NCBI RefSeq assembly: GCF_006542275.1
Contig: NZ_CP041217.1
Coordinates: forward strand, 1,411,501 to 1,475,500
Direction of reading: 5' to 3'
Length of the DNA: 64,000 nt
Source: Saccharibacillus brassicae
Lineage (GTDB): Bacteria > Bacillota > Bacilli > Paenibacillales > Paenibacillaceae
Shown piece by piece: positions 6,680 through 22,403 of this stretch. Numbering within the stretch: position 1 is the first letter of the stretch; each line of letters opens with the position of its first letter. The position numbers were made by a program, and so were the translations under genes. The notes under the pieces were generated by a model. The model was not told where the DNA came from. It saw only the letters and a list, made by a program, of their open reading frames with translations, and ran no database searches.

Positions 6680-7477
6680 TCAGGGCTTGCCCGCGTCTTC
6701 TTCGTTCAGAAAAGGCTTGTTGACGAAATAGTACATGAAGCCCATCAGTCCTGCGCCGCCGACCAGATTGCCGAGCGTGACCGGCACCAGATTGTGCACG
6801 ACGCCCGCCATGGAGATCTCGGCCGGATGCTCGACGACGAGCGCGATCGCGAACGTGCACATATTGGCGATACTGTGCTCGTAGCCCGAGATGAAGAAGC
6901 AGAATACGAATAACATCATGGCGAACATTTTGGCTCCGTTTTCCTTCATGAACATCGGAACGAAAAACGCCATACAGACGAGCCAGTTACACAAAATCGC
7001 CCGGAAAAACAGTTGGCCCGTCGGCGCTTCCATCTTATGCTGGACCACGTTGAGCAGGAAGGCGTTGATGTCCGGGGAAGCGAACAGGCCGGTCAGGAAA
7101 ATAAATCCCGCGAACAGCGCCGCTCCGATCATGTTGCCGCCATAGCTCGTGATCCACAGCTTGAACACTTCCGGCCAGCGCATTTTTTTGCGCAGCGCCG
7201 CGTACGTGTAATAGAACGTGTTGCCCGTGAACAGGTCGCCGCCGCCGTAAGAGATCAGGATGATCGCCGCGCCGAACGTGATCGCCGCCATCGGATAGGC
7301 CATCGGCGACTCCACCAGGTAGAAAAAGCTGCCCGCGCGGAAAGCCACGATGACGCCGAAACCGATAAACATGCTGGCCAGAATGGAACGCAGCATGTAG
7401 CGGATGATGCTTTGCTTGAAAATCTTGTGCTTTTTGAGTGCCAGTAATTCTACGTTTTTGAGAGCTTCCGTTTCCAT
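6680..7477 (-). CDS. Formate/nitrite transporter family channel
   Basis: A 265-residue FNT-family membrane protein (FocA/NirC type) with six predicted helices. The family segment around YGGGDLFTGNTFYY, with its conserved Gly/Thr/Asn pore-loop residues, is clear. A second repeat covers the SGYEHSIANMCTF region, where the His corresponds to the conserved pore His. Known for the family: pH-gated channels for formate, nitrite or hydrosulfide. Which anion is moved here cannot be told. GGAGG lies five bases before the ATG. No formate or nitrite metabolism gene is adjacent, and the neighbouring two-component operon is downstream on the same strand behind a weak terminator. Confidence 0.9.
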   Translation of the reverse strand: METEALKNVELLALKKHKIFKQSIIRYMLRSILASMFIGFGVIVAFRAGSFFYLVESPMAYPMAAITFGAAIILISYGGGDLFTGNTFYYTYAALRKKMRWPEVFKLWITSYGGNMIGAALFAGFIFLTGLFASPDINAFLLNVVQHKMEAPTGQLFFRAILCNWLVCMAFFVPMFMKENGAKMFAMMLFVFCFFISGYEHSIANMCTFAIALVVEHPAEISMAGVVHNLVPVTLGNLVGGAGLMGFMYYFVNKPFLNEEDAGKP

Positions 7478-16528: not shown

Positions 16529-18661
16529 ATGAGCGAACAACGCGGATTGACCGCGGAAGATCTGTACCGCTTCGTCTGGGTGGGCGCACCCGACGTATCC
16601 AAAGCGGATGGACGCATCGCGTACACGGAACGGACCGTCAACGAAGCCAAAGACGGCTATATGACCCGTATTCGGGCTTTGTCGGCCGACGGCGCGCAGG
16701 ACATTCTGTTCACGTCGGGCGAACAGGACGCGTCTCCGGCGTGGTCGCCCGACGGCACCCGCCTGGCTTTTGCCCGCAAGCATGGCGACAAGCGCCAGAT
16801 CTGGCTGCTGCCAGCATCCGGCGGCGAAGCGCGCATGCTGACGCATCTGAGCGAAGGCGCCGGCGCTTTTGCCTGGTCCCCGGACGGATCGAAGCTGCTC
16901 GTCTCGTCGCAGGTCGACCCGGACGACAGCGGCCATAGCGAAGACGGTTCGGACGAAGACGGCCGTGAACCGGGCGGCGAACGCAAGAAGGGCATCGACG
17001 GCGAAACGAAGGTCGGCCAAGAAAACGCCGGCCAAGCGAAGACCGGCGAGGGAGGCGCACCTTCCAAAGACAAGCCGCTCAAAGAACTCGTCGTCGACCG
17101 GATCCGCTACAGAGGCGACGGCTCGGGCCTGTGGAACGGCAAGCGGAGCCATCTGTTCGTCGTCGACGCGGCAGACGGCGAGGCGCAGGCCGTCACGTCG
17201 GGCGAGTTCGACGTCGGCAGCTTCGCCTGGTCGCCGGACGGTTCGACGATCGCCTTCACCGCCTACATTCCGGCAGACAGCGAAGACGAGACCGATCCGG
17301 ACCTGCTGCTGGTCAGCGACCTGTACGTCGCGGACGCTTACGGCGGCAGCCGCCGCAAGCTGACCGATTCGAACTGGAGCATCGGCCAGCCGGCCTGGTC
17401 GCCGGACGGCTCGAAGATCGCGTTCTTCGCGAGCGACCGTTCGTACCACAACGCGACGCTGAACCGGCTGTACAGCATCGCGGCCGAAGGCGGCGACATT
17501 CTCTGCCTGACCGACGACCGCGACCTGCTTGTCGGCAACCTCGTCGTGGGCGATATGCGCTCGATGCTGCCTTCGCCGGCGCCGCTGTTCTCCGAAGACG
17601 GCAGCTCCGTCTACGCGCTGTTCACCCGTCACGGCAGCGCGGGGCTGGCCCGCTTCGCGGCGGACGGCTCCGGCCACGAAGAGGTCATCGTCGGCGACCG
17701 CGACGTGTATCAGCTGGCGCCGGACCATGAAGGCGGCTTCGTCGTCGCGATCGCCGATGCGCTGAATCCGGGCGACCTGTACCGGTTCTCGCCGGGCACG
17801 AAGCAGGAGACGCGCTTGACCGACGCCAACGGCGAATGGCTGGGCGAACGCGAGCTGAGCGCGCCGGAATCGTTCTGGGTGCAGACCGAAGACGGCTGGA
17901 ACGTGCAGGGCTGGATCATGCAGCCGGTCGGCTTCGACGCGGCGGCTGCCGCTTCGGCCGGAGCGCCGAAAGTGCCGACGATCCTGGAGATCCACGGCGG
18001 CCCGCATATGATGTACGGCCATACGTTCATGCACGAATTCCAGCTGCTCGCCGCCAAAGGCTATGCCGTCATCTTCGCGAATCCGCGCGGCGGCCACGGC
18101 TACGGCCAGGAATTCGTCGACGCCTGCCGCGGCGATTACGGCGGCGGCGACTACCGCGACCTCATGGAGACCGTCGATTATGCGCTGGCGAACTACGCCT
18201 ATATCGACGAGAAGCGTCTCGGCGTGACCGGCGGCAGCTACGGCGGCTTCATGACGAACTGGATCATCGGCCACACGGACCGCTTCAAGTCCGCCGTGAC
18301 GCAGCGCTCGATCTCGAACTGGATTTCGTTCTACGGCGTGAGCGATATCGGGCCGTACTTTACCGAAGACCAGATCGGCGGCGATCCGTGGCAGGATACC
18401 GAGCTGCTGTGGAAACACTCGCCGCTCGCCTACGTGCAGCAGATGCGCACGCCGCTGCTCATCCTGCACGGCGAGCAGGATCTGCGCTGCCCGATCGAAC
18501 AGGGCGAGCAGCTGTTCATCGCGCTCAAGCGCCTCGGCCGCAAAACGCGCCTGGTCCGCTTCCCGGGCGCCAGCCACGACCTGTCCCGCGGCGGCCACCC
18601 TTCGCTGCGGGTAGCAAGGCTGTCGCATATCGCGGGGTGGATGGACGATCATTTGGTGTAG
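16529..18661 (+). CDS. S9 family prolyl oligopeptidase-like peptidase
   Basis: A 710-residue serine peptidase. The N-terminal part (about 1-440) is a WD40-like/TolB beta-propeller with repeated SPDGS motifs, interrupted near residues 130-190 by a hydrophilic Lys/Gly/Glu-rich insertion. The C-terminal alpha/beta hydrolase domain has nucleophile Ser570 in GGSYGGF, Asp651 in HGEQDLRCP and His683 in GASHDLSRGGH. There is no signal peptide, so it is cytoplasmic and probably degrades short peptides (acylaminoacyl- or dipeptidyl-peptidase class). AGGAGG lies upstream of the ATG. It is monocistronic, with hairpins after the stop. Confidence 0.92.
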   Translation: MSEQRGLTAEDLYRFVWVGAPDVSKADGRIAYTERTVNEAKDGYMTRIRALSADGAQDILFTSGEQDASPAWSPDGTRLAFARKHGDKRQIWLLPASGGEARMLTHLSEGAGAFAWSPDGSKLLVSSQVDPDDSGHSEDGSDEDGREPGGERKKGIDGETKVGQENAGQAKTGEGGAPSKDKPLKELVVDRIRYRGDGSGLWNGKRSHLFVVDAADGEAQAVTSGEFDVGSFAWSPDGSTIAFTAYIPADSEDETDPDLLLVSDLYVADAYGGSRRKLTDSNWSIGQPAWSPDGSKIAFFASDRSYHNATLNRLYSIAAEGGDILCLTDDRDLLVGNLVVGDMRSMLPSPAPLFSEDGSSVYALFTRHGSAGLARFAADGSGHEEVIVGDRDVYQLAPDHEGGFVVAIADALNPGDLYRFSPGTKQETRLTDANGEWLGERELSAPESFWVQTEDGWNVQGWIMQPVGFDAAAAASAGAPKVPTILEIHGGPHMMYGHTFMHEFQLLAAKGYAVIFANPRGGHGYGQEFVDACRGDYGGGDYRDLMETVDYALANYAYIDEKRLGVTGGSYGGFMTNWIIGHTDRFKSAVTQRSISNWISFYGVSDIGPYFTEDQIGGDPWQDTELLWKHSPLAYVQQMRTPLLILHGEQDLRCPIEQGEQLFIALKRLGRKTRLVRFPGASHDLSRGGHPSLRVARLSHIAGWMDDHLV

Positions 18662-18682
18662 GTTTTGGGGGAAATAAGAGCG

Positions 18683-18758
18683 CGGCTTGAGGGCAAGGCT
18701 GTCCTCAAGCCCGGCATGCAGAGAGACCCGATCCGCCGGTAGGCGGGTCGGGGTTTTT
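18683..18758 (+). terminator. Tandem hairpins ending the S9 peptidase transcript
   Basis: A first hairpin (18683-18711, 10-bp stem GGCTTGAGG/CCTCAAGCC) is followed by a second (18726-18754, GC-rich stem with GGTA loop) and a T-run. The second is the intrinsic terminator. Confidence 0.8.
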
Positions 18759-19305
18759 GGCGTGGTGTGGGACCTAAGCGGCATGAAGTTGCGCCGACGA
18801 GGAAGATCGACAGGCAGCCAGGCATGTAGAGTGCGACGATCGGGATTGGCCAGAAGAGAAATACGCGAAAAAAGGGCAGTCGAGGCTTCAAAGGAACTGA
18901 TCGCTGAAGGCAGGAAATCGTAACGGAAACAGGCGACTCTTAAATGGAATCCTTTTTGTTTTGAGCGAAAAAGAGGTTGAATCGGACGTTTAACGATGCT
19001 CTGTTCAGTTAAAAATTCGTGCAAACCTGATTCGCTACTCTAAAGAATATACGGTTGGCCGAGCGGAGAAGTTCAGTTTGATCGTCGAACGGTAATGACA
19101 GTACGTTCAAGGAAGTTCTGAGCGGCAAACTTTTTCAATAAATTAATTTTTCGGTGGCTCAAGTGATTCAAGCGAAGAATCAATTTGCTATTTTACCGTT
19201 TATTCTTCATTTTTTTGGCGACTTGGTCGATAGTAATTACTGGATGATTCTACATACGTTTAGGAAAAGCAGGCTTTTTATTGGGTCAAAGAATTAGAGA
19301 CGATC
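18759..19305. other. Intergenic transition from high to low GC
   Basis: No gene is supported. GC falls gradually from the native level to about 35%. This sequence is the leader region of the methyltransferase gene and the left flank of the putative invertible segment. A weak promoter-like pair (TTGGTC at 19223, 17 bp, GATTCT) is present but unconvincing. Confidence 0.5.
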
Positions 19306-19336
19306 AGGTACTAATAACTATGAATTATTTGGAGGT
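19306..19336. other. Left recombination-site-like sequence (half-degenerate)
   Basis: Read as 12-7-12, the left arm 19306-19317 matches the inverted right arm at 8 of 12 positions. The spacer 19318-19324 is CTATGAA and the right arm 19325-19336 (TTATTTGGAGGT) is perfect. Bases 19313-19336 are an exact 24-bp inverted copy of 21126-21149. The right arm holds the GGAGG that serves the methyltransferase start at 19345. The role as a recombination site is inferred from symmetry, spacer size and the adjacent recombinase. Confidence 0.6.
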
Positions 19337-19344
19337 TTTTTTGC

Positions 19345-20067
19345 ATGCAGATTGATCCTAAAAAGGTAAAAGAGTTTTATGAAAACCAAGAGACTATCTG
19401 GCCATCTAAAGATAAATGGCATCAGTTTACAAAAGAGAGTATTGAAAAATATCTTCAATTTAAATACAAAAACATTAAAACTTTGAGGACTACACATACA
19501 ATTTTAAATATAGGATCCGGAGGAAGCAATTACGGATTATCAAACGACATGCATCATGTTGATTTAACAGAAAAATTTATTTCAAAATATAAGAATTTCA
19601 CCGTTGCTAATGCAGAAGAACTGCCATTCAAAACTCAAAGTTTTGAGTCTGCAATTTGTGTAGGGAGTGTTATTAATTATTGCGACGCTGCTAAGTGTAT
19701 TGAAGAAATAGCAAGAGTTTTAAAATCAAATTCGTATTTTTTTTTGGAGTTCGAAAACAGTTGGAGCATGGAGTTTTCGAACTCAAATGCTCATAAACAG
19801 ATGGCTGCTGTAGTTAAAACAAGATACTTTGATGAAGAACATATGCTTTGGGTTTATTCACCTCAACATATTATTAGTTTATTAAATGTTTATGGTTTTG
19901 AGATTAAGCACATAAAGCATTTTCACCTAGTCAGTAGTTTGATATATAAATTCACAAAAAATGAGAACTTATCTTCTTTTTTTAGCTTATTGGACCCTGT
20001 GATGAGTAAATTTCCTTTTCTAAAAAAAAGGAGTCACAACGTAATATTAACTTGTGTTAAAAATTAA
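19345..20067 (+). CDS. SAM-dependent class I methyltransferase, low GC
   Basis: A 240-residue Methyltransf_11-like enzyme. Motif I is ILNIGSGGSNYG, the acidic residue is in VDLTEKF, and a post-I/II region (AICVGSVINYCD) is followed by the usual ARVLKSNSYFFLEFE strand. The substrate is unknown; there is no DNA-methyltransferase catalytic motif. Base composition (about 30% GC) and codon use differ sharply from the surrounding genome, so it is probably acquired. GGAGG sits within the inverted repeat just upstream, with a 7-T stretch between it and the ATG. It converges on the GNAT-like gene. Confidence 0.88.
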   Translation: MQIDPKKVKEFYENQETIWPSKDKWHQFTKESIEKYLQFKYKNIKTLRTTHTILNIGSGGSNYGLSNDMHHVDLTEKFISKYKNFTVANAEELPFKTQSFESAICVGSVINYCDAAKCIEEIARVLKSNSYFFLEFENSWSMEFSNSNAHKQMAAVVKTRYFDEEHMLWVYSPQHIISLLNVYGFEIKHIKHFHLVSSLIYKFTKNENLSSFFSLLDPVMSKFPFLKKRSHNVILTCVKN

Positions 20068-20073
20068 ATAGTT

Positions 20074-20117
20074 AAAAAGAGTGTAATCAGTATTATTTAT
20101 CAACTTCACTCTTTTTT
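20074..20117. terminator. Shared terminator between convergent island genes
   Basis: AAAAAGAGTG (20074-20083) pairs with CACTCTTTTT (20107-20116) across an AT-rich loop, with A/T runs outside. It lies in the 38-bp gap and touches the stop of the minus-strand gene. Confidence 0.65.
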
Positions 20118-21119
20118 ACTTTTGGAATTAGTCCAAACGATTACAGCAACAGAAGCAAAGGAGCTTATCAAGGCACCAAATACTGCTCCTACTGCACCAC
20201 CTTCAATCATAATGTCGAATTTAGATAAAACAAACTGGAACAAAATCAAGAAAGCTACCGGACCTATAAACGGCGCGAAAATAAGTGTAGGGTAGAAAAA
20301 TTTCGATCTGATTTTTTTAGCTGGTACTGAGCCTGCTGTCGAATGGAATTCTGGTTGAGTAAGAATATCCTTACTTGGAATATGGTTGATAACAATAGGA
20401 TCTGTGTTTCCTACACCTTTCTCAACACTTAAAAGTAAGCTATCCAAATGTAATTTATAGTTCTGAAGTTCTTGTTGATTCATAAATGGTTTATACCATT
20501 CAAAATAATAAGAAAAGTAAATTGTTTTGACAATATTGATCACAGTATCTTTAGATAATTTTTTAATTTGATCGTTTGCTTTTACATAAAGTTTTGCTTG
20601 CAAAGAACTCTCAAAATTATCACTTCCTAAATAAGGCTGATAGTAATCAATATTCACTTCCCCAAAGTTTTCAAAAGAGATTAGCTGTTTTAAAAACAAG
20701 CTTTCTTTATCTAAGACTTTTCCGTCCTCTTGATTCCCTATTTCTGTAATCCAATAATTTATGTCCCAATCATTCTTTTTAGCAAGTTCTTTTAATAAAC
20801 TTAAAGAAGGAAAAAATACTGCGTTTATTCTAAAGGGATCTTTAAAAGTCATATAATCAATCAACATGAATTTATTTTTTTTAAAGTAAGAAGCTTGTAT
20901 GTATCCAATAATTTCTTCATCTAGATATATTACAAATAACATAAAACTAAAATTCTTAGAATTATCAGCGTTATCAATCCAATAAGTGATCTCGTTTGTG
21001 TTGGTTTTCATTTCTGGCGAAGTTTCTTGACTGTATATCTTTAAAGCTTTTGAAAAATCTTCATCTTCGCTTTTAACAATCCATTTAATTTTATATTTAT
21101 TTTCTAGTGTTAAAACCAT
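20106..21119 (-). CDS. GNAT-like protein with C-terminal membrane hairpin, low GC
   Basis: A 337-residue protein of low GC. The N-terminal part (about 1-120) reads like a GNAT fold (strand FMLFVIYLDEEIIGYIQASYF, then a hydrophobic helix), without a clear acetyl-CoA loop. The middle is not recognised. The C-terminus has two membrane helices (about 277-299 and 303-325) and a Lys-rich tail. It may be a membrane-bound acetyltransferase or a degenerate GNAT; function is unknown. GGAGGT lies six bases before the ATG inside the right inverted repeat. It lies 44 bp downstream of the recombinase gene on the same strand. Confidence 0.75.
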   Translation of the reverse strand: MVLTLENKYKIKWIVKSEDEDFSKALKIYSQETSPEMKTNTNEITYWIDNADNSKNFSFMLFVIYLDEEIIGYIQASYFKKNKFMLIDYMTFKDPFRINAVFFPSLSLLKELAKKNDWDINYWITEIGNQEDGKVLDKESLFLKQLISFENFGEVNIDYYQPYLGSDNFESSLQAKLYVKANDQIKKLSKDTVINIVKTIYFSYYFEWYKPFMNQQELQNYKLHLDSLLLSVEKGVGNTDPIVINHIPSKDILTQPEFHSTAGSVPAKKIRSKFFYPTLIFAPFIGPVAFLILFQFVLSKFDIMIEGGAVGAVFGALISSFASVAVIVWTNSKSKKE

Positions 21120-21125
21120 ATTTTT

Positions 21126-21156
21126 ACCTCCAAATAATTCATAGTTATTTGGAGGT
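21126..21156. other. Perfect 12-7-12 palindrome, tyrosine-recombinase core-site-like
   Basis: ACCTCCAAATAA (21126-21137), spacer TTCATAG (21138-21144) and TTATTTGGAGGT (21145-21156): perfect 12-bp inverted arms around 7 bp, followed by T7 to 21162 and then the recombinase stop codon. On the minus strand the spacer is CTATGAA, equal to the left site. The left arm would pair with the GGAGGT of the downstream GNAT-like gene in an mRNA, hiding its ribosome binding site. On the plus strand it also looks like a terminator, but no plus-strand gene needs one here. Confidence 0.7.
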
Positions 21157-21162
21157 TTTTTT

Positions 21163-22134
21163 CTACATATTCAGCTTGTTTCTCGGGTTAAACTTGGACA
21201 AAACATTCTTCTTGCGCTTGATCGAAACTTCGGTATAAATCTCCGTCGTGCTGACGCTGGAGTGGCCCAGAATCTCCTGGACCGAACGAAGATCGGCGCC
21301 GTTATCGAGCAAATGCGTGGCGAACGTATGGCGCAGGGAGTGCGGCGTCGCGGTTGGGGTGATGCGCGCGGAGTCGCGGTATTTGGAGAAGATATCTTCG
21401 ATCGAATAAATGGTCAGGCGATTGCCATACTTGTTGACGAACAGCGCGTTGTCTTGCGGAGCCAGCTGCGGCCTGACTTTCATCCAGCTTTTCAGGCTGC
21501 CGACCACTTCTTTGCTGGACAGGTAGAGATTCCGCTCTTTGCGCCCTTTTCCGAAGATCAGCAGGGTGTGCTCCCCCACGTTCAAATCCCGGAGATCGAT
21601 GTTCACGAGTTCGCCGATACGAATGCCTGTAGAAAACAGCAGTTCGATGATGGCCAGGTTGCGCGTCGCGATCAGTTTGCGATAGTCGGACTTGAGCATG
21701 ATCGTATCGTATTCGATACTTCTCAGCAGTCGCTGGATTTCTTCGATCGGCAGCGTTTTGGGGATACGTTTGGCTTTTTTGAATTTGGCTCCGAGGGAGA
21801 ACTCGGACATGCCGTTCAGCAGATCCTGCTCGCCCAAAAATTTGAAAAAGGTTTTGACCGAGATGTATTTGCGCTTGAGCGTCGTGTCTTTCATGGTGCC
21901 TTTGCCGATCAGCTCCGCGAAGTAGAGATGCAGCACCTGATGATCCACGTGAAAATGCCGATTGTGCTCGCACCAGGCGGTGATCAGATTGAGATCGTAG
22001 TGATAGGCGCGCACGGTCGGATCGGACAGGTTCCTCTCGACGATCAGGTTCTGCGTATATTTCAGTATGTACTGCTTGAAGGCGTCCAGTTCCAATCCGG
22101 GCGGTGCCATAAGTAGGTTCGCTTCTTTTTCCAT
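21163..22134 (-). CDS. Tyrosine recombinase (XerC/D-like integrase)
   Basis: A complete 323-residue tyrosine recombinase: N-terminal SAM-like core-binding domain (about 15-105) and catalytic domain with Arg172 (TGIRIGEL), Lys196 (GKGRKER), His265 and Arg268 (HSLRHTFATHLL), His291 (LGHSS) and nucleophile Tyr300. All six catalytic positions are present. The start is ATG at 22134 with AAGGA five bases upstream; the longer frame to 22206 has no ribosome binding site and overlaps the promoter. GC content is native, unlike the two genes next to it. Its stop codon directly abuts the palindromic site, which suggests it acts on that site. Confidence 0.92.
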   Translation of the reverse strand: MEKEANLLMAPPGLELDAFKQYILKYTQNLIVERNLSDPTVRAYHYDLNLITAWCEHNRHFHVDHQVLHLYFAELIGKGTMKDTTLKRKYISVKTFFKFLGEQDLLNGMSEFSLGAKFKKAKRIPKTLPIEEIQRLLRSIEYDTIMLKSDYRKLIATRNLAIIELLFSTGIRIGELVNIDLRDLNVGEHTLLIFGKGRKERNLYLSSKEVVGSLKSWMKVRPQLAPQDNALFVNKYGNRLTIYSIEDIFSKYRDSARITPTATPHSLRHTFATHLLDNGADLRSVQEILGHSSVSTTEIYTEVSIKRKKNVLSKFNPRNKLNM

Positions 22135-22177
22135 TGTATTCCTTCCACTTCCTTCTTGCGTATCGCACGCTTTTAAT

Positions 22178-22206
22178 ATCTTAAAGGAAATCGGAAGCCC
22201 ACTCAA
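22178..22206 (-). promoter_or_regulatory. Sigma-A-type promoter of the recombinase
   Basis: TTGAGT (22206-22201) and TAAGAT (22183-22178) are separated by exactly 17 bp, about 45 bp upstream of the ATG. A second, less well spaced TTGAAA/TATATA pair lies further upstream. Confidence 0.6.
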
Positions 22207-22403
22207 ACCTATATAAATGGCTATTCTTCATAATTTTCAAGATTGCCTTTTATTAAGAATACTGGGCAAAAAATCACCGCTCGCACATAACCCTCCTCCC
22301 CCCTCCCGTGATCAATCTCATAGCCAGCGCATCCAAATACGATTATGTTAAAAAGTTACGAATACCACACCTCTCTCCGGCAAACAATGGCTCGAACGGG
22401 TCA

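Follow-up and report, generated by a model that had tools for sequence, protein, structure and literature searches.

A two-gene cassette between inverted sites beside a tyrosine recombinase: a probable slot for flipping and exchange

Introduction

What is a low-GC pair of convergent genes doing between inverted repeats at the end of a tyrosine recombinase gene? The question is raised by a locus in a stretch of 64,000 nucleotides (nt) from Saccharibacillus brassicae (contig NZ_CP041217.1, positions 1,411,501 to 1,475,500), which we call the window and within which the coordinates below are counted. An earlier note on this DNA had proposed a two-state switch, in which the recombinase flips the segment and either gene can join either leader. 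Comparison with related loci led to a broader reading, which we consider likely. The locus would be a slot that holds one cassette and is served by a tyrosine recombinase of its own, and its two partner genes would be flipped, exchanged for other pairs and read from outside. In our view the exchangeability of the flipped two-gene cassette is a more important result than the flip itself.

The recombinase and its two sites

The recombinase gene (21163..22134, minus strand) encodes an Xer-type enzyme of 323 amino acids (aa), identified using Pfam, NCBIfam and a genome search. Its translation matched Pfam Phage_integrase (E 1.3e-42) together with a SAM-like N-domain, and the motifs R, K, HxxRH and LGH...Y, which we take to be the catalytic residues, could all be read in it, indicating a complete enzyme. 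The proximal recombination site is a perfect 12-7-12 palindrome (21126..21156, ACCTCCAAATAA-TTCATAG-TTATTTGGAGGT, spacer 21138-21144). The distal site (19306..19336) has a perfect inner arm (19325-19336), an identical spacer (19318-19324) and an imperfect outer arm (19306-19317) matching at 8 of 12 positions. With up to 3 mismatches allowed, the palindrome was unique in the genome, a single contig of 5.62 Mb, and the 19-bp site half occurred at two places only in the window and at none in 100 shuffles.

The cassette, measured from inner arm to inner arm (19325..21137), spans 1813 bp with 30% GC, as against 55% and 61% in the flanks. It contains the gene for an S-adenosylmethionine-dependent methyltransferase of 240 aa (19345..20067, plus strand), at present in the distal position, and a convergent gene for a 337-aa protein (20106..21119, minus strand), at present proximal. 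The Shine-Dalgarno sequence of each gene (GGAGGT) lies within the inner arm and would be kept in either orientation. The complete recombinase, the 24-bp perfect inverted repeats (19313-19336 and 21126-21149), the low-GC convergent pair, the architecture of both sites and the position of the ribosome binding sites had all been described correctly in the earlier note. The palindrome was also said to abut the recombinase stop codon; the two are in fact separated by 6 nt.

The recombinase is the sole member of its subfamily in the window genome, where the next best recombinase scored 6.7e-39. Across the family, the subfamily was detected in 34 of 394 genomes (E<=1e-55, window genome counted), the best match outside it being 1.2e-50 in a search of 79 genomes. 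In a sample of the taxonomic class, 8 of 398 genomes carried the recombinase at E<=1e-60, every one of this family. Judged by the recombinase, Saccharibacillus species are the nearest named relatives of the window genome. We fetched 26 subfamily genomes besides the window and left out 7 of the 34, in which the recombinase lies at a contig edge. Before counting, we omitted L152 (the L151 locus as an inverted copy), L162 and L165 (contig end at the site) and the second copy in L037/L164; the complete segments L037-L058 are the same records as L140-L166 and were counted once. This gave 27 complete loci, including the window, Enterococcus L060 and Methanoperedens L065.

In all 27, a proximal site follows the recombinase gene and a second, inverted site closes a segment of 1.8-3.6 kb that holds two convergent main reading frames, one per end (one of them broken in L163). 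The 7-bp spacers were equal within the locus in 27 of 27 cases, with five spacers overall; random pairing gave a mean of 8.5 and a maximum of 17 in 10,000 permutations, and since related loci are not independent the agreement is somewhat overstated. Searches with the recombinase and the 337-aa protein also led to plasmids (five from Streptococcus salivarius/equinus, three from Aliarcobacter) with recombinases 36-37% identical to that of the window, beside which inverted repeats of 17-39 bp enclose a convergent gene pair. The site cores are of the type AATAA-N7-TTATT (GATAA-N7-TTATC in Streptococcus), and resemble dif. The scanned stretches contained one inverted site pair per locus; the exceptions were L164, which the assembly has duplicated, and L155, with a one-mismatch core inside it.

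Other identities for the enzyme fitted poorly. Chromosome-dimer resolution was rejected on the scores (247.8 against a cut-off of 335 for XerC, 222.8 against 330 for XerD) and on the patchy distribution, and an IntI-type integrase on 112.9 bits against a cut-off of 265 (TIGR02249). The slot is no generic trait of Xer-like genes: among 56 further relative loci (L061-L116), only L065 had an inverted repeat scoring at least 18 from the recombinase end, the next best being 15, a control that is weaker at the several loci with less than 1.5 kb of downstream sequence and that would miss an upstream slot. Two Roseobacter plasmid recombinases (~32% identical) have different neighbours by annotation. 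A phage origin was also rejected, as none of the phage matches listed (20 of 25 records at E<=1e-30) exceeded 34% identity, and three matches on viral contigs were 27-31% identical to the recombinase. No relative of the 337-aa protein was found on the viral contigs.

Inversion of the cassette

In the mechanism that we propose, the two-gene cassette would lie between inverted dif-like sites that share the same 7-bp overlap, and the recombinase would flip the cassette by recombining these sites. Both orientations were found within single-strain assemblies of two relatives. A scaffold of S. sacchari (L037) carries the segment twice, in opposite orientations, with 2263 bp at 100% identity; all four site-gene junctions are assembled there because both flanks are partly repeated around a 100-N gap. 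In Paenibacillus sp. IHBB 10380, a 17,061-bp 'plasmid' (NZ_CP010977.1, L170) reproduces the chromosomal locus at 99.9-100% identity, with a 3596-bp segment inverted whose ends fall exactly at the sites. This record duplicates a chromosomal stretch with an inverted cassette, and is thus probably no plasmid.

Between genomes, a 3458-bp segment is inverted at 99.9% identity in Aliarcobacter pACRY43158 (L193) relative to pM830MA, the compared flanks being 99.9-100% identical, and one cassette lies in opposite orientations in L154/L161 and in L149/L153. L141 has the window pair reversed relative to the window, with protein identities of 45% and 53%. Both orientations were seen for 8 of the 9 cassette types found at two or more loci.

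Could these be assembly artefacts? Two of the cases depend on draft scaffolding or on an unusual small contig, which would suit such an explanation. We nevertheless regard it as highly improbable: the copies in S. sacchari and IHBB 10380 are 100% identical and flipped exactly at the sites, and the same is seen in two different-genome pairs and in two complete Aliarcobacter plasmids that were deposited independently. In 9 of 34 genomes, the contig breaks off no more than 250 bp from the recombinase, which fits a mixed junction, and which the palindrome alone might cause as well.

The flip is real in the relatives, and the comparison with related genomes that the earlier note had called for, together with the agreement of the spacers, strongly supports its proposal of a recombinase-driven inversion. 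In the window strain, which is represented by one assembly, the flip is very probable by analogy with these relatives; that it must be argued from them counts against our reading of this particular locus. The recombinase is the putative agent acting at the two sites.

Replacement of the cassette

Inversion as the whole story did not survive the comparison of flanks, which indicates that the segment is also an exchangeable cassette. We compared all 29 pairs of loci in which the flanks on the recombinase side share at least 84% identity over at least 500 bp. Despite the similar flanks, the cassettes of 23 pairs gave no alignment that reached 300 bp. Unrelated cassettes lie between flanks that are 98.5/96.5% identical in L159/L160, 97.2/96.8% in L153/L154 and 95.7/89.9% in L148/L149, and on plasmids between flanks of 97.7/91.5% in L192/L193 and 99.7% in L194/L197 (recombinase side only). 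Three cassette types stand beside Streptococcus plasmid recombinases that are 95-100% identical. Replacement of cassettes in relatives, with breakpoints at the sites, is thus shown by sequence comparison. The recombinase would be the exchanger, as the breakpoints fall at its sites; other two-gene cassettes would replace the resident one over evolutionary time, probably because inverted sites with matching overlaps permit exchange by the same enzyme.

It may be argued instead that homologous recombination in the flanks replaces the cassettes, with no part for the recombinase. Flanks within groups are similar enough for this, and no free circular cassette turned up, in the course of work that included no dedicated search for one; the latter point weighs against the slot as well. 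However, in L149/L153 the cassette is 96.2% identical and the flanks only 87.1/85.5%, and the similarity of L049 and L051 ends at the sites or within ~40 bp of them, while homologous replacement would normally carry some flank along. We therefore think homologous replacement improbable.

The remaining 6 of the 29 pairs share a cassette. Besides L149/L153, L154/L161 has a cassette more similar (99.1%) than its flanks (95.1/94.6%), and in three plasmid pairs the cassette and flanks are all near-identical. In L150/L157 the cassette (85.3%) has diverged along with its flanks (86.3/81.7%), indicating plain inheritance and no exchange. On a recombinase tree of 35 rows (a quick method that gave a long-branch warning, from which label changes alone were used, and which includes the near-duplicate rows L191/L198, L194/L195 and L193/L196), the 14 cassette types change 23 times, compared with 23-29 changes in 200 shuffles (mean 26.5). 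For the most part, though not entirely, cassette content is thus independent of recombinase lineage. The observed value equals the lowest shuffle, so some inheritance remains, and this and the L150/L157 pair speak against unrestricted exchange.

Contents of the cassettes

Both genes of a cassette would be partners of one system, in most cases an enzyme and a sensor- or effector-like protein. One instance is Thoeris, in which ThsB makes a signal for ThsA. A SIR2_2+STALD protein with a TIR protein was found in L164 (=L037) and L148 (=L048) by profile, and in L140 by blastp clustering. PADLOC identified ThsA and Pfam the TIR protein in both L037 and L048; in L037, the only one of the two scanned for it, the PADLOC match to ThsB was moderate (1.1e-9). 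According to PMC7272460, Thoeris is a two-gene anti-phage system that requires both genes, and a role could not be assigned there to ThsB.

An ATP-grasp protein (D-Ala-D-Ala ligase-like) with a large partner occurs at 14 chromosomal loci and in Aliarcobacter L193/L196. The large partner has weak AAA_16 matches in two clusters (9 of the 14 loci) and none in a cluster of 3, the other two loci being one unscanned and one broken. The 14 ATP-grasp proteins sort by partner type with no exception, at 35.8% identity or more within types (21 pairs) and 32.4% or less between them (70 pairs). This comparison covered the ATP-grasp cassettes only, and argues that these pairs are stable units. Phage matches to the ATP-grasp protein were 22-23% identical and covered part of it. 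In L163 the ATP-grasp gene is open and that of its large partner is disrupted across several frames. In L196 (1937-4407) the large partner is annotated in two pieces, as overlapping frames, and in pACRY43158, at 99.9% DNA identity, as a single frame.

The window methyltransferase matched Pfam Methyltransf_11 (8.2e-9), and the 337-aa protein gave no match in Pfam, NCBIfam, PADLOC or the PDB. An Aliarcobacter relative of the latter is annotated as GNAT, with a weak Acetyltransf_1 match (21.9 bits, cut-off 20.7). Two hydrophobic C-terminal stretches were seen by eye in the 337-aa protein, and an AlphaFold model made without an alignment (pLDDT, the predicted local distance difference test, 44.9) placed helices at 276-301 and 307-334 with low confidence. 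The combination of a methyltransferase with a protein of the 337-aa type recurs in L141, L191/L198 and L192, and L065 combines a methyltransferase with a 669-aa protein that has no Pfam match. The window cassette itself is not Thoeris, as neither gene was matched by PADLOC.

Further types pair a polyprenyl synthetase with a protein judged by eye to be of membrane type (L147, L166, L194, and L195 via 99.7% DNA identity), serine hydroxymethyltransferase (SHMT) with AAA/TPR proteins (L060, L197), a blastp relative of SHMT with a 785-aa protein (L146), an aminotransferase with pentapeptide repeats (L143, and L159 by blastp), and a KamA-type radical SAM enzyme (aminomutase) with TPR and weak AAA matches (L145=L046). 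Only one of the two cassette genes is annotated in L195. By analogy, most pairs fit a signal-making enzyme with a sensing partner, and the methyltransferase and 337-aa pair is probably an uncharacterised system of a Thoeris-like kind.

The immune function that we infer for cassettes other than Thoeris has a rival, namely that they are switchable metabolic, envelope or toxin-antitoxin modules. Most of the enzymes belong to metabolic families (SHMT, aminotransferase, polyprenyl synthetase, ATP-grasp). Moreover, when 20 proteins from 12 loci were scanned with PADLOC, three Thoeris proteins alone scored as known defence beyond weak matches, a result that also tells against the reading we prefer. 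Against such modules, three Thoeris cassettes occupy the same slot, partners carry weak AAA/STAND-like NTPase, TPR or SIR2 domains, and the content is replaced rapidly, in the manner of defence hot spots. On balance, we find a non-immune role unlikely.

Expression from the two positions

The convergent layout would make both genes readable from outside in either orientation, with ribosome binding sites in the inner arms and transcription probably from outer promoters. The two positions differ. Over 17 site pairs at 16 loci (L037 twice), the mean unpaired probability of the Shine-Dalgarno sequence was 0.02 at proximal and 0.39 at distal sites, and the outer arm matched at a mean of 11.3 of 12 positions proximally against 8.6 of 12 distally (17 rows). 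In the window, the proximal palindrome is predicted to hide the Shine-Dalgarno sequence in RNA read from the recombinase, and with its T run it resembles a terminator stem for plus-strand RNA leaving the segment. Extended -10 elements (at most one mismatch) occurred in 19 of 35 distal flanks and in 5 of 35 proximal flanks, where shuffles predicted 8.5 and 2.7, respectively; the five proximal cases are all Streptococcus. No probability is attached to the excess as the rows are related. In L043, L046, L047 and L053, the distal leaders contain a similar block, AGGAGGAT...TGGAA, seen by eye within ~160 nt before the distal site, which is perhaps the start of a leader peptide.

In 17 of 27 loci (window included) the recombinase stop codon precedes the palindrome by 6 nt; in 8 it is located inside the palindrome, and in L141 it is 8 nt away. 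A ribosome terminating so close to or within the palindrome could open the hairpin. The distal gene would face the leader, which has an extended -10 in many loci, and have the more open Shine-Dalgarno sequence; the proximal gene would sit behind the stop codon and the hairpin, with translation that is probably weak and coupled to ribosomes completing the recombinase. A flip would then set the ratio of the partners, or keep them apart to limit self-harm.

Several loci do not conform to this layout and count against it. In L039 and L048 the distal site folds as well (unpaired probability 0.02 and 0.09), and the proximal arm of L043 has decayed. The window leader showed no promoter in two scans, one for the extended -10 and one for sigma-70, which found nothing on the plus strand before 19426. 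The recombinase of the Streptococcus plasmids is directed away from the slot, and the stop codon is 105 nt from the site in L065 and ~22 nt in Aliarcobacter, indicating that the hairpin with coupling is not universal.

The asymmetry of the positions may indicate either that expression is graded or that it is exclusive. In the latter case, a classical either/or phase switch, the distal gene alone would be expressed and a flip would select the other. The strong site asymmetry, with a hidden proximal and a more open distal Shine-Dalgarno sequence, the terminator-like stem that closes the segment on the recombinase side, and the enrichment of distal -10 elements are in keeping with such a switch. 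Yet ATP-grasp partners are fixed over 14 loci, strict exclusion would deprive the three Thoeris cassettes of one required half (PMC7272460) except around a flip, and ribosomes could open the proximal hairpin in the loci just described as having the stop codon 6 nt before or inside the palindrome. We consider an exclusive switch rather unlikely. Of the earlier proposal of two alternative genes, the flipping segment therefore stands, and the either/or choice is doubtful, since the gene pairs tested belong together in one system and the segment can, in addition, be exchanged.

A further possibility is that flipping has no regulatory role and is a by-product of inverted sites meant for cassette exchange. 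Exchange is frequent, and the occurrence of nearly all recurrent cassette types in both orientations implies that neither seems strongly selected; the consistent difference between the outer arms suggests, on the other hand, that the positions are not equivalent. We hold this explanation to be doubtful, with some weight in its favour, and retain the slot with graded expression as the preferred reading.

Comparison with known systems

The slot shares with tyrosine-recombinase invertible segments, such as PsrA/hsdS of S. pneumoniae and the fim, cwpV and RecV switches, short inverted sites, a dedicated enzyme, a reversible flip and both orientations in one population. Inverted sites with an identical overlap were found at 27 of 27 loci, and both orientations in single assemblies of two relatives. 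It differs in that a whole two-gene unit flips, in place of a promoter or partial frames, at two sites and with content exchanged between species. PsrA of S. pneumoniae inverts parts of hsdS, according to PMC7096588, and PinQ (PMC12529663) is a serine recombinase in a prophage. A shufflon, with three or more sites swapping partial gene ends, was rejected, there being two sites and whole genes here.

Integrons likewise have a recombinase gene beside a site where cassettes read from outside are exchanged. The slot is single, its cassettes have two genes each and are bounded at either end by inverted double-stranded sites, and the enzyme is of Xer type; an integron array (attI with attC sites in direct order) was rejected on the one inverted site pair per locus. 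Thoeris thsA/thsB is alike in the SIR2-STALD and TIR pairs that lie in the slot at L037, L048 and L140; the slot versions are convergent and flippable. In recombinase-mediated cassette exchange (the Cre/lox and Flp/FRT laboratory method), a cassette between inverted sites is swapped where the overlaps are compatible. The slot would be a natural instance of this, a mechanism suggested by comparisons alone.

No title or abstract among the literature matches listed describes the system, which is weak evidence of absence as subscription papers and bioRxiv are thinly covered. The main text of a genome-wide inversion survey (PMC5903667) does not contain the words 'Paenibacillus', 'convergent' or 'defense'. 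We regard the slot as a variant of invertible DNA that has a serious claim to form a class of its own. More tentatively, and with somewhat less than even confidence in the whole, we suggest an undescribed class of platform: an invertible single-cassette slot that trades convergent two-gene immune systems, through natural cassette exchange, on chromosomes and plasmids of Bacillota, on plasmids of Campylobacterota and in a Methanoperedens archaeon. It would expose several undescribed enzyme and effector systems (methyltransferase, polyprenyl synthetase, SHMT, aminotransferase, KamA-type aminomutase and ATP-grasp), and its inversion would ensure that the two parts of a system that might be suicidal are expressed unequally or separately. 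If this is true, a single marker (a recombinase gene with a palindromic site at its end) would lead to a catalogue of two-gene systems that trade places. The function of each pair would be directly testable, with signals unlike known ones suggested, and recombinase-mediated cassette exchange would have a natural example. It would also raise the question of why cells should flip the halves of a single defence system.

Boundaries of the element and further observations

The whole element (leader, slot and recombinase) occupies 18656..22343 in the window, ~3.7 kb (3688 bp), between an S9 peptidase gene (16529-18661) on one side and the upstream region of cydA on the other; the genes beyond are taken from their sequence to be cydA/B. 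Of 6 same-genus genomes lacking this recombinase, 4 lack the element at the peptidase gene and hold just 179, 181, 616 and 672 bp instead (L201, L202, L205 and L203), which identifies it as an insertion. The other 2 gave no match to the cydA side within the fetched stretch.

Two further loci are of interest. In a Christensenellaceae metagenome-assembled genome (L063, 63-79), a sequence resembling a site, with a GGGG stretch and an ATG after it, is located close to the contig start, upstream of the recombinase. In Enterococcus larvae (L064, ~6870-6905), a proximal outer arm, the spacer CTACAAA and an arm resembling a distal outer arm make up a single site beside the recombinase; no second site was found at this locus, and it looks like an empty slot.

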